Source: Sulfuricurvum sp. (GTDB taxonomy: Bacteria; Campylobacterota; Campylobacteria; Campylobacterales; Sulfurimonadaceae). From it: a stretch of 36,258 nt of DNA. Location: contig NZ_JAFLKV010000154.1 of NCBI RefSeq assembly GCF_019163035.1, forward strand, positions 1 to 36,258, read 5' to 3'. The translations under genes and the position numbers were made by a program. The notes beneath the pieces were generated by a model. It searched no databases and was not told the DNA's origin. It saw nothing but the letters and a program-made list of their open reading frames with translations. Below are positions 14,060 to 28,404 of the stretch, in pieces (position 1 is the first letter of the stretch; each line of letters begins with the position of its first letter).

Positions 14060-14224
14060 TTAGGAAGCTTTTTGGCTTTCACAAAAATGGATTCGATCTT
14101 TGTGCTCTTGCTTTTTGCCGATATTAAAACTTTCAACCGGGCGATGGTAGCCCATAACACGTGTATATACAACGCATCGGGTACGTTTATCTGCATCCAT
14201 TTTTAATGATAGATTCGTTTTCAT
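14060..14224 (-). CDS. 54-aa protein resembling the C-terminal glycyl-radical segment of class III RNR (NrdD)
   Basis: MKTNLSLKMDADKRTRCVVYTRVMGYHRPVESFNIGKKQEHKDRIHFCESQKAS; RVMGY and RPV..FN.GKK.EHK.R match NrdD C-termini. SD AAAGGAG precedes ATG at 14224. Confidence 0.8.
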   Translation of the reverse strand: MKTNLSLKMDADKRTRCVVYTRVMGYHRPVESFNIGKKQEHKDRIHFCESQKAS

Positions 14225-14262
14225 AATATCTCCTTTGTAGTATTCGATTTGGATCCTCAAAT

Positions 14263-14347
14263 AGGAGTTCGTTCAAGCAGTATAGTGCTTTATCGGGGCT
14301 TACCTTAAGGAGGGTTTTTTTAATCTATACTGCTCGAACCAACTCCT
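14263..14347. repeat. 23-bp imperfect inverted repeat (2 mismatches, 39-nt spacer)
   Basis: AGGAGTTCGTTCAAGCAGTATAG (14263-14285) versus CTATACTGCTCGAACCAACTCCT (14325-14347). Confidence 0.85.
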
Positions 14348-14358
14348 CAAAAGAGGAG
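14343..14358. repeat. Perfect hairpin CTCCTC-AAAA-GAGGAG overlapping the right arm of the larger inverted repeat
   Basis: 6-bp stem, 4-nt loop, just downstream of the cytochrome c stop codon on the minus strand. Confidence 0.8.
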
Positions 14359-14362
14359 AACA

Positions 14363-14659
14363 TTATTTACTGATATGGGCAGCCAAAGTGGTTATTTGAG
14401 CATCTGTTAATGACATAACTTGCCCTTTCATAATCGCTTTTGACGCTGCACCGTAGGTACCGTCTTTGTATCCTTTGAGTGCCATGATAATTTGTGCACT
14501 GCTCATATCTTTGATGATTTTGCTTTTACCAAGTGCCGATTTTTCACCCTGAACACCATGACAGGCCGCACATTTTTTAAATAGATCCGTCCCTTCATCC
14601 GCCGAAGACGTACTCCATAGACCGAACAAAACACTTACCGCAACTAACACTTTTTTCAT
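14363..14659 (-). CDS. Small class I cytochrome c (c553-like), periplasmic
   Basis: Signal peptide and CAACHG heme site; C-terminal MSLTDAQITTLAAHISK. Confidence 0.9.
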   Translation of the reverse strand: MKKVLVAVSVLFGLWSTSSADEGTDLFKKCAACHGVQGEKSALGKSKIIKDMSSAQIIMALKGYKDGTYGAASKAIMKGQVMSLTDAQITTLAAHISK

Positions 14660-14714
14660 TGCAAACTCCTATATAAAGAATACGTTATTGTAAAGCGTTT
14701 ACAGAAGAAAGTCT

Positions 14715-14728
14715 TTGATATAGGTCAA
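14715..14728. promoter_or_regulatory. Crp/Fnr-family box TTGATATAGGTCAA
   Basis: TTGAT-N4-GTCAA about 56 bp upstream of the cytochrome c start. Confidence 0.6.
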
Positions 14729-15402: not shown

Positions 15403-17505
15403 TCATGCAGACTCGCGGGCAAAGATTTCACTATCGCATTTCGGGCAATACTCATGCTCACCGTTGAGATAGCCGTGTACGGGACAGACCGAAAAAGTCG
15501 GAGTCACCGTGATGTAGGGAAGGCGAAAGTTGGTAATGACATTTTTAACCAAACGACGGCATGCTTCGCCGGAGCTCAACCGCTCGCCCATGTACAGATG
15601 CAAAACAGTACCTCCCGTATAGCGGCATTGAAGTTCGTCTTGAAGCGTTAGAGCCTCGAACGGATCAGAGGTGAGATCCACAGGAAGCTGTGAACTGTTC
15701 GTATAATAAATATTTTCTCCCTCACCCGCTTGGAGGATATCGGGATAGCGTTTGATATCTTCTTTCGCAAAACGATACGTTGTCCCCTCTGCCGGAGTCG
15801 CTTCAAGATTATAGAGGTTGCCGCTCTTTTCTTGGAATGTACGCATTTTTTCGCGCATATGATCGAGGATCGAGAGGGCGAACTGTGTTCCCCATTCGGT
15901 AGAGATATTTTCGGTATCGCAGCTCATATTACGGATCATTTCGTTCATCCCGTTGACTCCGATAGTCGAGAAATGGTTATGAAACCCTTTCAGATAACGG
16001 GCGGTGTAGGGATAGAGACCGCGATTAAACATGTCTTGGACAAAAAGCCGTTTTTTCTCTAATGTCGAATAAGAAATTTCAATCAGTGCATCCAACTCTT
16101 CCATCAACCGTGCATGATCGTCTTTGTATAGGTATCCCAATCGTGCCATATTGATCGTAACGACGCCGATACTTCCCGTCATCTCTGCACTTCCGAAAAG
16201 TCCGCCGCCACGTTTGAGCAGTTCGCGCAAATCAAGCTGTAATCGACAGCACATACTTCGTACATGCCCCGGTTTATAGGCGTCGGGATTGTCGATCGGC
16301 TGACCGTTTTCATCCCGAAGATATTGACTCCCTACAAAATTTTGAAAGTAGCTGGAGCCGATTTTAGCGGTGTTTTCAAAAAGGACATCGGTGTTGGGTC
16401 CGTACCAGTCGAAATCTTCGGTGATATTGACGGTGGGGATCGGAAACGTAAACGGGGCCCCTGTTGCATCGCCCTCACTCATGACTTCATAAAAGGCACG
16501 GTTGATTTGGTTCATTTCGCTCTGAAAATCAGAGTAGGTCAGATCGCTCATAACTCTTTTATCCCGTTCAAACAGTTTACGCTGATGATGGGCAGTAAAG
16601 GGAAAGTTATGGAACAGATGGATGTCCTTGCAGGTAGGAAATTGCAATGCAAGATCATCCGGAACCATCCAATCCAGTGTGATATTGGTAAAGGGTGACT
16701 GTCCCCATCGTGCCGGGACATTGAGGTTATACACAAACCCACGTATCGCTTTTTTTATCTCGATAAAAGAGAGCTCATCGGCAAAAACATACGGAGCCAA
16801 ATAGGTATCAAACGAGCTAAATGCCTGTGCTCCCGCCCATTCGGATTGTAAAATGCCTAAAAAATTGGCCATTTGTCCCAGCGCTTCTCGAAAATGGCGA
16901 GGGGGATTACTCTCCACTCGTCCCCGTACTCCGTTAAATCCTTCATTGAGTAGGGCTCTGAGGCTCCATCCGGCACAATAGCCTGTCAAACAATCAAGAT
17001 CATGAATATGGATATCGCCGTTACGGTGTGCGGCTCCTTCGTGAGGCGCGTAAACTTTATCGAGCCAAAAGTTAGCGATCACTTTGCCCGCGAGATTATT
17101 CACCAATCCGGCATTAGAGTATCCGGTATTGGCATTGGCATTGACCCGCCAGTCGGATTTGTGAATATACTCTTCGACACTTTGGGTGGAGTTGACGTAG
17201 GTCGTATCTTCTCCCAGTCCCAAGATATGTTCTCGCTGCATTTTATGTAAAAATCGATAGGTGATAAAGGATTTCATCACTTCGAAGTAGCCCGCACCGT
17301 AAAGAGTGCGCTCGATGAGATCCTGAATCGACTCCACATCCACTATACCCTCATGCAAAACACTAAACAATACTTCCGTCACGACGTTTTCGTCTAAAGG
17401 AACTGAAACACTTTTAAATGCTTTGGCAATGGCGTCTTCGATTTTAAAAGGGTAAAACGGCTCTGTAGAGCCGTCTCGTTTAAGAACATGTTTGATCGGC
17501 TCCAT
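15403..17505 (-). CDS. nrdD: Anaerobic (class III) ribonucleoside-triphosphate reductase, large part lacking the C-terminal glycyl-radical motif
   Basis: ATP-cone N-terminus (VLKRDGSTEPF), NrdD core (HIHDLDCLTGYCAGWSL, VNITEDFDWYGPN, GSIGVVTINMARLGYL), ends at VCPVHGYLNGEHEYCPKCDSEIFARESA* with no RVxGY. Confidence 0.93.
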   Translation of the reverse strand: MEPIKHVLKRDGSTEPFYPFKIEDAIAKAFKSVSVPLDENVVTEVLFSVLHEGIVDVESIQDLIERTLYGAGYFEVMKSFITYRFLHKMQREHILGLGEDTTYVNSTQSVEEYIHKSDWRVNANANTGYSNAGLVNNLAGKVIANFWLDKVYAPHEGAAHRNGDIHIHDLDCLTGYCAGWSLRALLNEGFNGVRGRVESNPPRHFREALGQMANFLGILQSEWAGAQAFSSFDTYLAPYVFADELSFIEIKKAIRGFVYNLNVPARWGQSPFTNITLDWMVPDDLALQFPTCKDIHLFHNFPFTAHHQRKLFERDKRVMSDLTYSDFQSEMNQINRAFYEVMSEGDATGAPFTFPIPTVNITEDFDWYGPNTDVLFENTAKIGSSYFQNFVGSQYLRDENGQPIDNPDAYKPGHVRSMCCRLQLDLRELLKRGGGLFGSAEMTGSIGVVTINMARLGYLYKDDHARLMEELDALIEISYSTLEKKRLFVQDMFNRGLYPYTARYLKGFHNHFSTIGVNGMNEMIRNMSCDTENISTEWGTQFALSILDHMREKMRTFQEKSGNLYNLEATPAEGTTYRFAKEDIKRYPDILQAGEGENIYYTNSSQLPVDLTSDPFEALTLQDELQCRYTGGTVLHLYMGERLSSGEACRRLVKNVITNFRLPYITVTPTFSVCPVHGYLNGEHEYCPKCDSEIFARESA

Positions 17506-26638: not shown

Positions 26639-27295
26639 TTATAGTCCCTCGTTGAAATATCGCGTTAATTCTTCACGTTGTAAAACGATTGTTTTATGAT
26701 CTTCTTCCATAATCAGCCCTTTACGGATAAATTTAGCCAATACACGTGAAAGAGTCGCAGGTTGAATATTGAGCCGATAGGATATCTCTTGTTTCTTTAG
26801 TCGATTGTATAAATCCAAATGATCATAAAGCATCTTTGCCACTTTTGCAGTGACATCATAGACCATCCCCATACTCACCATACAATCCACACGTTGTTTT
26901 TGATCGGCGAGGATATTGACTAAATTAATCAAGAGCGATACATCGGTTTTGACTACTTCTTTAAAAGTTTTAAGATCGAATGATACCACACGACTCGGAA
27001 CCAAAAATTCTATATTACTAAAACAGCTGATACTATGACATTCGAGAGAACCGATATCCGTTAGAAGAGTTTGGTTTGAGAGGGTATATAAAAAGATTTC
27101 ATTATCAAAACGGTCAACTTTATAGAGTTTAACTTCCCCCTCAACGAGGAAATAGACGCGATTAATATCATCTTCTTCATAGACCAAAATATCAGATGTA
27201 TTATAACTTTTAAATTTGGCGGTCGAAGAGAGGAGGGATAATTTTAGAGGATCGCAATCTTTAAAAAAATCAAGATTCTCGAGTTGGAATATCAT
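26639..27295 (-). CDS. Crp/Fnr family transcriptional regulator
   Basis: cNMP-binding-like N-terminus and Crp-type HTH (EISYRLNIQPATLSRVLAKFIRKGLI); lacks the classical FNR N-terminal Cys cluster. Confidence 0.88.
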   Translation of the reverse strand: MIFQLENLDFFKDCDPLKLSLLSSTAKFKSYNTSDILVYEEDDINRVYFLVEGEVKLYKVDRFDNEIFLYTLSNQTLLTDIGSLECHSISCFSNIEFLVPSRVVSFDLKTFKEVVKTDVSLLINLVNILADQKQRVDCMVSMGMVYDVTAKVAKMLYDHLDLYNRLKKQEISYRLNIQPATLSRVLAKFIRKGLIMEEDHKTIVLQREELTRYFNEGL

Positions 27296-27420: not shown

Positions 27421-28386
27421 ATGTTGCGAGATCGTTATGACCGTAAAGTCACCTATTTGCGTGTATCGGTTACAGAGCGTTGTAATTTTCGATGTCGCTA
27501 CTGTATGGCTGAAAAACCCTTTAGTTGGGTCCCTAAAGAGAACTTATTAAGTTATGAAGAACTATTTTCATTTATTAAAATCGGTATTGATAACGGTATC
27601 CAAAAAATTCGTCTTACCGGTGGGGAACCGACGACCCGTGAGAATCTTGATGAGCTGATCGGTATGATCCATACCTATGCGCCGAATGTTGATATCGGAT
27701 TAACGACCAATGGCTTTTTACTTCCAGCACAGGCAGAGAAACTCAAATGTGCAGGGTTGCGACGTGTTAATATTTCACTTGATTCGCTAAATCGTGAGAC
27801 ACTTGATTATATCACACAAAAAGATGTGTTAGAACAAATACTAACTGGAATAGATGCTGCATCAGACGCCGGGTTATCTATTAAACTCAATAGCGTTATT
27901 TTACGAGGTATTAATGATCATGAAATAGTCCCCCTGTTTGAATATGCAAAAGAGATAGGTGCACAAATCCGCTATATTGAATACATGGAAAATTCCCATG
28001 CTCATGAAACACTGCAAGGTCTTCGAAGTGATGAGATTATCGAGGTATTGGGTAAATCTTATCCGTTCATTCCGATTGATAGAGACGAGAGTGGACCGGC
28101 AAATCTGTATGAAACACCGGATGGGTATCGGTTCGGAACCATCGAACCCCATCGCCACGATTTTTGCGCGACGTGTGATCGTTTGCGACTCACGGCGGAG
28201 GGAGATTTGATTGGGTGTTTATACTTCGAGGGGGCAAAAAGTATTAAAGAGGCGATACGTGAGGGCAATATTGCTAAAGCAACCCAAATTTTAGAGGATG
28301 TTGTGTTTAACAAACCCGAAAAAAACCTTTGGGGAATTGAAAACATCGAGATCTCTTCTCGTGCCTTTTACCGTACCGGAGGTTAA
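27421..28386 (+). CDS. moaA: GTP 3',8-cyclase MoaA (molybdenum cofactor)
   Basis: RVSVTERCNFRCRYCMAEKP, LTGGEPTTR, FCATCDRLRLTAEGDLIGCL, C-terminal GG. Confidence 0.95.
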   Translation: MLRDRYDRKVTYLRVSVTERCNFRCRYCMAEKPFSWVPKENLLSYEELFSFIKIGIDNGIQKIRLTGGEPTTRENLDELIGMIHTYAPNVDIGLTTNGFLLPAQAEKLKCAGLRRVNISLDSLNRETLDYITQKDVLEQILTGIDAASDAGLSIKLNSVILRGINDHEIVPLFEYAKEIGAQIRYIEYMENSHAHETLQGLRSDEIIEVLGKSYPFIPIDRDESGPANLYETPDGYRFGTIEPHRHDFCATCDRLRLTAEGDLIGCLYFEGAKSIKEAIREGNIAKATQILEDVVFNKPEKNLWGIENIEISSRAFYRTGG

Positions 28387-28390
28387 AATA

Positions 28391-28404
28391 TTGATTTGAA
28401 TCAA
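28391..28404. promoter_or_regulatory. Crp/Fnr-family box TTGATTTGAATCAA
   Basis: TTGAT-N4-ATCAA; overlaps the ORF-track TTG start, arguing for the GTG at 28456 as the true start. Confidence 0.6.

Follow-up and report, generated by a model that had tools for sequence, protein, structure and literature searches.

The inverted repeat that lies between a small cytochrome c gene and a short glycyl-radical ORF in the window (the whole stretch of 36,258 nucleotides from Sulfuricurvum sp. analysed here) belongs to a structured RNA, whose helices carry compensatory changes across relatives. Judged by sequence searches, this RNA is a previously unlisted one, conserved across sulfur-oxidising Campylobacterota. 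We consider it somewhat probable that it represents a new family of FNR/CRP-regulated small RNAs (sRNAs) of Sulfurimonadaceae, hosted in a 3'UTR or stand-alone, with an anti-Shine-Dalgarno (anti-SD) loop that would act without Hfq.

Structure and covariation of the RNA element

The arms of the inverted repeat (14263–14285 and 14325–14347) pair over 23 bp with two mismatches, one of which becomes a G-U pair when read as minus-strand RNA, and enclose a 39-nt spacer that includes the palindrome CCTTAAGG (14303–14310). These features agree with the initial annotation, as do the 6-bp hairpin sharing an arm (CTCCTC-TTTT-GAGGAG, at 14358–14343 on the minus strand) and the placement of the element between the stop of the cytochrome c gene (14363) and the SD sequence of the small radical ORF. 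The folding that it had proposed as a check gave −45.7 kcal/mol for the minus-strand RNA, far more stable than shuffled sequences (z = −5.68; none of 200 shuffles as stable).

Positions 14362–14264 of the minus strand form two adjacent hairpins, P1 with 6 bp and P2 with a stem of ~20 bp, and the complete element (14264–14362, minus strand) matches positions 1–98 of the 98 positions of covariance model R2 (95.9 bits, E 3.1e-20; 94.8 bits with model R1). P1 (CUCCUC-UUUU-GAGGAG, 14343–14358, minus strand) is followed by the 5' arm of P2, with the core GAGCAGUA (14325–14347, minus strand), whose lowest bases overlap the 3' strand of P1 in the window element; the 3' arm of P2 (14263–14285, minus strand) is supported by the arm pairing, the fold and the covariation. 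The loop holds an anti-Shine-Dalgarno-like motif, CCCUCCUUAAGG (14303–14314, minus strand), which is predicted to be unpaired and whose CUCC is conserved in the loops of the family.

In an alignment of 12 sequences, 12 of the 19 pairs had both partners changed without loss of pairing, the covariation score being 0.533 as against 0.284 in shuffled alignments and 0.09–0.17 with slid partners, and the same helices were recovered independently by RNAalifold. With 20 sequences, 92.6% of the cells were paired, double changes occurred in 12 of 19 pairs (75 cells) and the score was 0.550 (0.262 in shuffles, with 0 of 500 reaching it, and 0.06–0.16 when slid); since this larger alignment was fitted to the model, the 12-sequence test and RNAalifold are the cleaner evidence. 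Double changes in the 20 sequences were present at all 6 pairs of P1 (covarying helix 1) and at 6 of 13 pairs of P2 (covarying helix 2, 93.8% of cells paired). Conservation and covariation in relatives, on which the initial annotation had made its reading depend, were thus both found. The minus strand is favoured, because G-U cells are more numerous in the sense reading (28) than in the antisense reading (8), and the orientation of the promoters described below agrees with it. Downstream of distant cytochrome orthologues the sequence differs, and the architecture repeats: a short P1, a long P2 and, in a large loop, a motif of the CCUCCUU type.

The element belongs to the cytochrome c gene

The nearest named relatives of the genome place it in Sulfuricurvum. 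The window carries a nitrate/NO respiration cluster, comprising napA/G/H/D genes, a porin gene, nrdD, nrdG, the cytochrome c gene, the element, the NrdD radical segment and norC/norB; a CRP/FNR protein is also encoded in the cluster (26639–27295). The gene directly upstream of the element encodes a small c-type cytochrome (98 aa, 14363–14659, minus strand; PF00034), of which the RNA is the 3'UTR. On the other side lies the small radical ORF (NrdD glycyl-radical C-terminal ORF, 54 aa, 14063–14224, minus strand; PF13597 positions 531–562), a neighbour outside the element.

A search of the genus recovered the element at 79–96% identity in five relatives, always directly 3' of the small cytochrome c orthologue. 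In four of these genomes (G026, G014, G020 and G022) the element is followed by genes for a TonB-dependent receptor, a CRP/FNR-type regulator and a nirS-like cytochrome cd1, all three named by sequence resemblance, and the radical ORF is 4.7–4.9 kb away. Only in the window genome and in G007 does the radical ORF directly follow the element, and in the window it does so because the TonB receptor/CRP/nirS block is missing; in other Sulfuricurvum genomes it precedes nrdG and the cytochrome gene. On the basis of this synteny, we assign the element to the 3'UTR of the cytochrome gene. The initial annotation had considered a leader or attenuator of the radical ORF, a role that finds no support, since the element tracks the 3' end of the cytochrome gene and its linkage to the ORF is not conserved.

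A more general cis-acting leader, in which P1 and P2 would form a switch or the CCUCC loop would mask the SD sequence of whichever gene comes next, is improbable. In the clade of the window the 3' strand of P1 does overlap the base of P2, forcing P1 costs ~8 kcal/mol (−36.2 versus −44.0), and a CRP/FNR gene begins a short distance beyond the RNA in some Sulfurimonadaceae. Nevertheless, the downstream genes are unrelated (TonB receptor, napA, moaA, CRP regulator or a convergent gene, with roughly ten convergent cases) and some of them have an FNR box of their own. The mutually exclusive pairing described initially comes down to a few bases that overlap locally in the clade of the window; elsewhere P1 and P2 stand side by side and are compatible, so a P1/P2 switch is not conserved.

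Distribution of the family

Model R1, built from cytochrome-hosted copies only, revealed that five genomes have a second copy elsewhere, at unrelated loci 3' of a moaA or GGDEF-type gene, and that another genus has one following a cytochrome c gene; by the same search, some Sulfuricurvum genomes are without the RNA, a point against the sRNA reading. Using model R2 at a cut-off of E ≤ 0.02, where the weakest matches include chance ones such as L182, the two-hairpin RNA was matched in ~33 of 228 Sulfurimonadaceae genomes, belonging to 6 of 18 genera. We inspected 36 copies, including two weak model matches (G003a and G021a, 14–15 bits) that were taken in on synteny: 25 follow a cytochrome c gene of the same type, 7 are stand-alone and 4 come after another ORF, porin-like in three cases by sequence resemblance. 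The weak matches L168, L169 and L182 lie in coding regions and were judged to be due to chance. A sample across the class yielded no convincing copy beyond Sulfurimonadaceae; its sole weak match (G610) is an A/T hairpin without the context of the RNA, which we also attribute to chance.

Rfam 15 gave no match in the window and nothing plausible at a relaxed E-value on five loci, and a literature search, to which most subscription journals were external, found no published account of the RNA. In the cultured type strain Sulfuricurvum kujiense DSM 16994 the RNA is present and unannotated, on pSULKU01, with the c-type cytochrome gene SULKU_RS13155 on one side and napA on the other.

The copy number speaks against a MITE, a REP or another mobile repeat, or a chance structure, an explanation we regard as barely credible. 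The inverted-repeat shape and the presence of up to three loci in some genomes would suit it. However, genomes carry one to three copies, mostly at orthologous sites, with compensatory changes in two helices, and in its own assembly (155 contigs, 88% complete) the element is single-copy, the sole other model match being the antisense of the same site. The genome-wide copy search suggested at the outset hence does not point to a repeat element, and the proposed MITE-like remnant is abandoned.

In G030 the cytochrome-associated copy has lost P2 and the stand-alone copy was kept. The window genome shows the reverse: the RNA is retained at the cytochrome gene, and moaA (stop at 28386) and the next FNR box (28391) leave no room for one between them. 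These opposite arrangements fit redundant copies acting in trans.

Some further arrangements were observed. At 28386–28396 of the window an FNR box lies 4 nt after moaA and no stand-alone RNA is present, whereas in G026, G022 and G021 moaA is followed by one. Genome G003 contains three RNA loci (L148 and L189 among them): one in a cytochrome 3'UTR, one stand-alone and one after an outer-membrane-type ORF that is convergent with a cysG-like gene. At the end of the cytochrome c orthologues of G033 (L100) and G029 (L099), one different hairpin takes the place of P1 and P2.

FNR-type promoters

A perfect TTGAN6TCAA box was present in all 32 cytochrome-hosted and stand-alone copies, directly upstream of the host gene in the former (25 of 25) and of the RNA itself in the latter (7 of 7). 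For the cytochrome host genes the box is mostly 57–72 nt before the start codon, and for the stand-alone copies it is 60–65 nt before P1. In three stand-alone copies read by eye (L160, L148 and L173), a TATAAT sequence follows 22 nt after the box, which is the class-II FNR geometry, and the transcription start of stand-alone copies is predicted to fall ~10 nt before P1. The window copy has the box TTGACCTATATCAA (14715–14728, minus strand) 69 nt before the start of the cytochrome c gene, followed, at the same 22-nt spacing, by a −10-like TACAAT (14687–14692, minus strand). From these boxes we infer that the RNA has a regulator of the FNR/CRP type. The window contains 7 perfect TTGAN6TCAA boxes, where 1.5 are expected (none of 100 shuffles reached 7). 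Several of them precede napA, moaA and the cytochrome gene, nitrate-respiration genes being among those preceded.

The stand-alone copies with their own FNR-type promoter are the reason why we favour a small RNA, one of the possibilities listed initially; its structured nature is supported by the covariation, and it would be transcribed and released as an sRNA and act in trans on SD sequences. The same copies, beginning ~10 nt after the predicted start, are difficult to reconcile with a factor-independent terminator or a generic 3'-end hairpin of the cytochrome transcript. Its position at a 3' end, its strong stem and the T-rich tails seen in some copies (G026, G012 and G293) resemble such a structure. 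Nevertheless, among the 36 inspected copies most have no intrinsic terminator with a U-run 3' of P2, and a loop of 39 nt that contains a conserved motif is unlike a terminator, so that this explanation is very unlikely.

The loop motif and its putative targets

CUCC is found in the loop of 34 of the 36 copies, and the loop motif has a predicted mean unpaired probability of 0.89, against 0.43 over the whole RNA. The stems diverge between clades and the loop motif is kept.

The genes that may be recognised by this loop are candidates only: ccoO (cbb3 oxidase) and a nuoG-like gene, both of them conserved hits of a target prediction by SD complement. In most genomes of the clade of the window the SD sequence of ccoO (UAAGGAGGGG) is perfectly complementary to the loop, with predicted duplexes reaching −20 kcal/mol; in G020 this SD is weaker. 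However, genomes that lack the RNA conserve the ccoO SD equally well, and there is no covariation between it and the loop; for this reason ccoO is kept only as a candidate target. The 8-nt loop complement before a start codon (AAGGAGGG-N2-9-ATG) was not enriched over a reversed-pattern control in six genomes. Furthermore, CCUCCUU fits generic SD sequences, which counts against the sRNA reading.

Because most copies lack a U-tract, the SD complement is not enriched and the ccoO SD sequence is kept without the RNA, the main rival is a cis role in the processing of the cytochrome mRNA. P2 would then be a site for RNase III or other processing, or a barrier to 3' exonucleases, stabilising the message or separating it from the downstream genes, and the loop motif would bind a protein or be incidental. 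A stem of ~20 bp is an ideal RNase III substrate, and 25 of the 36 copies come directly after the same cytochrome c gene. This role is nevertheless rather unlikely, as the stand-alone copies lack a cytochrome gene and have an FNR-type promoter to themselves, the CCUCC of the loop is conserved despite changing stem sequences, and in G030 it was the cytochrome copy that lost P2, a stand-alone copy being kept.

No Hfq was detected in 10 genomes by a search that did detect the controls of E. coli and B. subtilis. Since Hfq was not found, the long stable stem could replace the chaperone.

Comparison with known regulatory RNAs

Several characterised sRNAs resemble the proposed family in part. RoxS/RsaE of Firmicutes is induced by NO via the redox regulator ResDE, and its C-rich regions bind SD sequences and inhibit translation initiation of redox and TCA genes (PMC5419742). 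By description, the family of the window is similar in its C-rich loop, its FNR/CRP-type box and its denitrification neighbourhood, whereas RoxS/RsaE belongs to a different phylum and has a different regulator and fold, and RoxS is not hosted in a cytochrome 3'UTR. NmsRA and NmsRB of Neisseria meningitidis are paralogous sibling sRNAs that carry anti-SD motifs and act as translational repressors of TCA genes (PMC5362039); the RNAs described here differ in having the motif in the loop of a ~20-bp stem, FNR-type promoters and dispersed copies. In Rhizobiales, SmelA075 and SmelA099 present the conserved anti-SD sequence CCUCCUCCC in hairpin loops with divergent stems (PMC3927594), just as the loop motif is kept here while the stems diverge, but these alphaproteobacterial RNAs have three or four hairpins, each with the motif. 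In sequence and structure the family also differs from FnrS and AniS, and the Hfq on which enterobacterial FnrS relies was not detected in the genomes examined here.

FnrS and AniS are under FNR control, and the enterobacterial FnrS uses Hfq. Both are made under oxygen limitation, FnrS in enterobacteria and gonococci and AniS in the meningococcus (PMC5362039).

Within Campylobacterota, the proposed action on SD sequences can be set against that of RepG, for which we know of no FNR-type box or cytochrome host. This Helicobacter pylori sRNA is described as targeting G-rich mRNA leaders (PMC8295292); its target is a G-repeat rather than SD sequences.

Putative role in the respiratory switch

We propose that the FNR/CRP-type promoter would fire under low oxygen or during nitrate/NO respiration, giving a short cytochrome c mRNA whose 3'UTR is the RNA (in the window) or the RNA alone (at other loci). 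The P1 hairpin and the long P2 stem would constitute a stable scaffold that holds the CCUCCUU loop open, and the loop would pair with strong SD sequences (AAGGAGG) of other mRNAs, blocking the start of translation without Hfq. The RNA is thus probably switched on with nitrate or low-oxygen respiration and would block the ribosome-binding sites of other messages. More speculatively, this Hfq-independent, FNR/CRP-induced family of anti-SD sRNAs might block the translation of genes for aerobic respiration (ccoO of the cbb3 oxidase, NADH dehydrogenase) and thereby turn the respiration of sulfur-oxidising Campylobacterota from oxygen to nitrate/NO; its embedding in the 3'UTR of a nitrate-cluster cytochrome would allow message and regulator to be made together.

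Hardly any regulatory RNAs are known from free-living Campylobacterota, and the genomes examined here have no detected Hfq. The family offers an FNR-type promoter of its own, dispersed paralogues and a single obvious functional loop, and its presence in the cultured S. kujiense DSM 16994 makes post-transcriptional control of the oxygen-to-nitrate switch testable.

Other features of the window

The class III ribonucleotide reductase of the window is split: the 700-aa NrdD (15403–17505, minus strand) stops short of the glycyl-radical motif, which is supplied by the separate ~54-aa ORF at 14063–14224 on the minus strand (TRVMGYHRPVESFN). This small radical ORF was present in 79 of 80 fetched loci (L011–L090), mostly from Campylobacterota and some from Bacteroidota, and in S. 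kujiense it is annotated as nrdD in RefSeq. The right end of the contig (30911–36080) contains ORFs of mobile-element or phage appearance, Rad52-like and DUF932-like when judged by eye.
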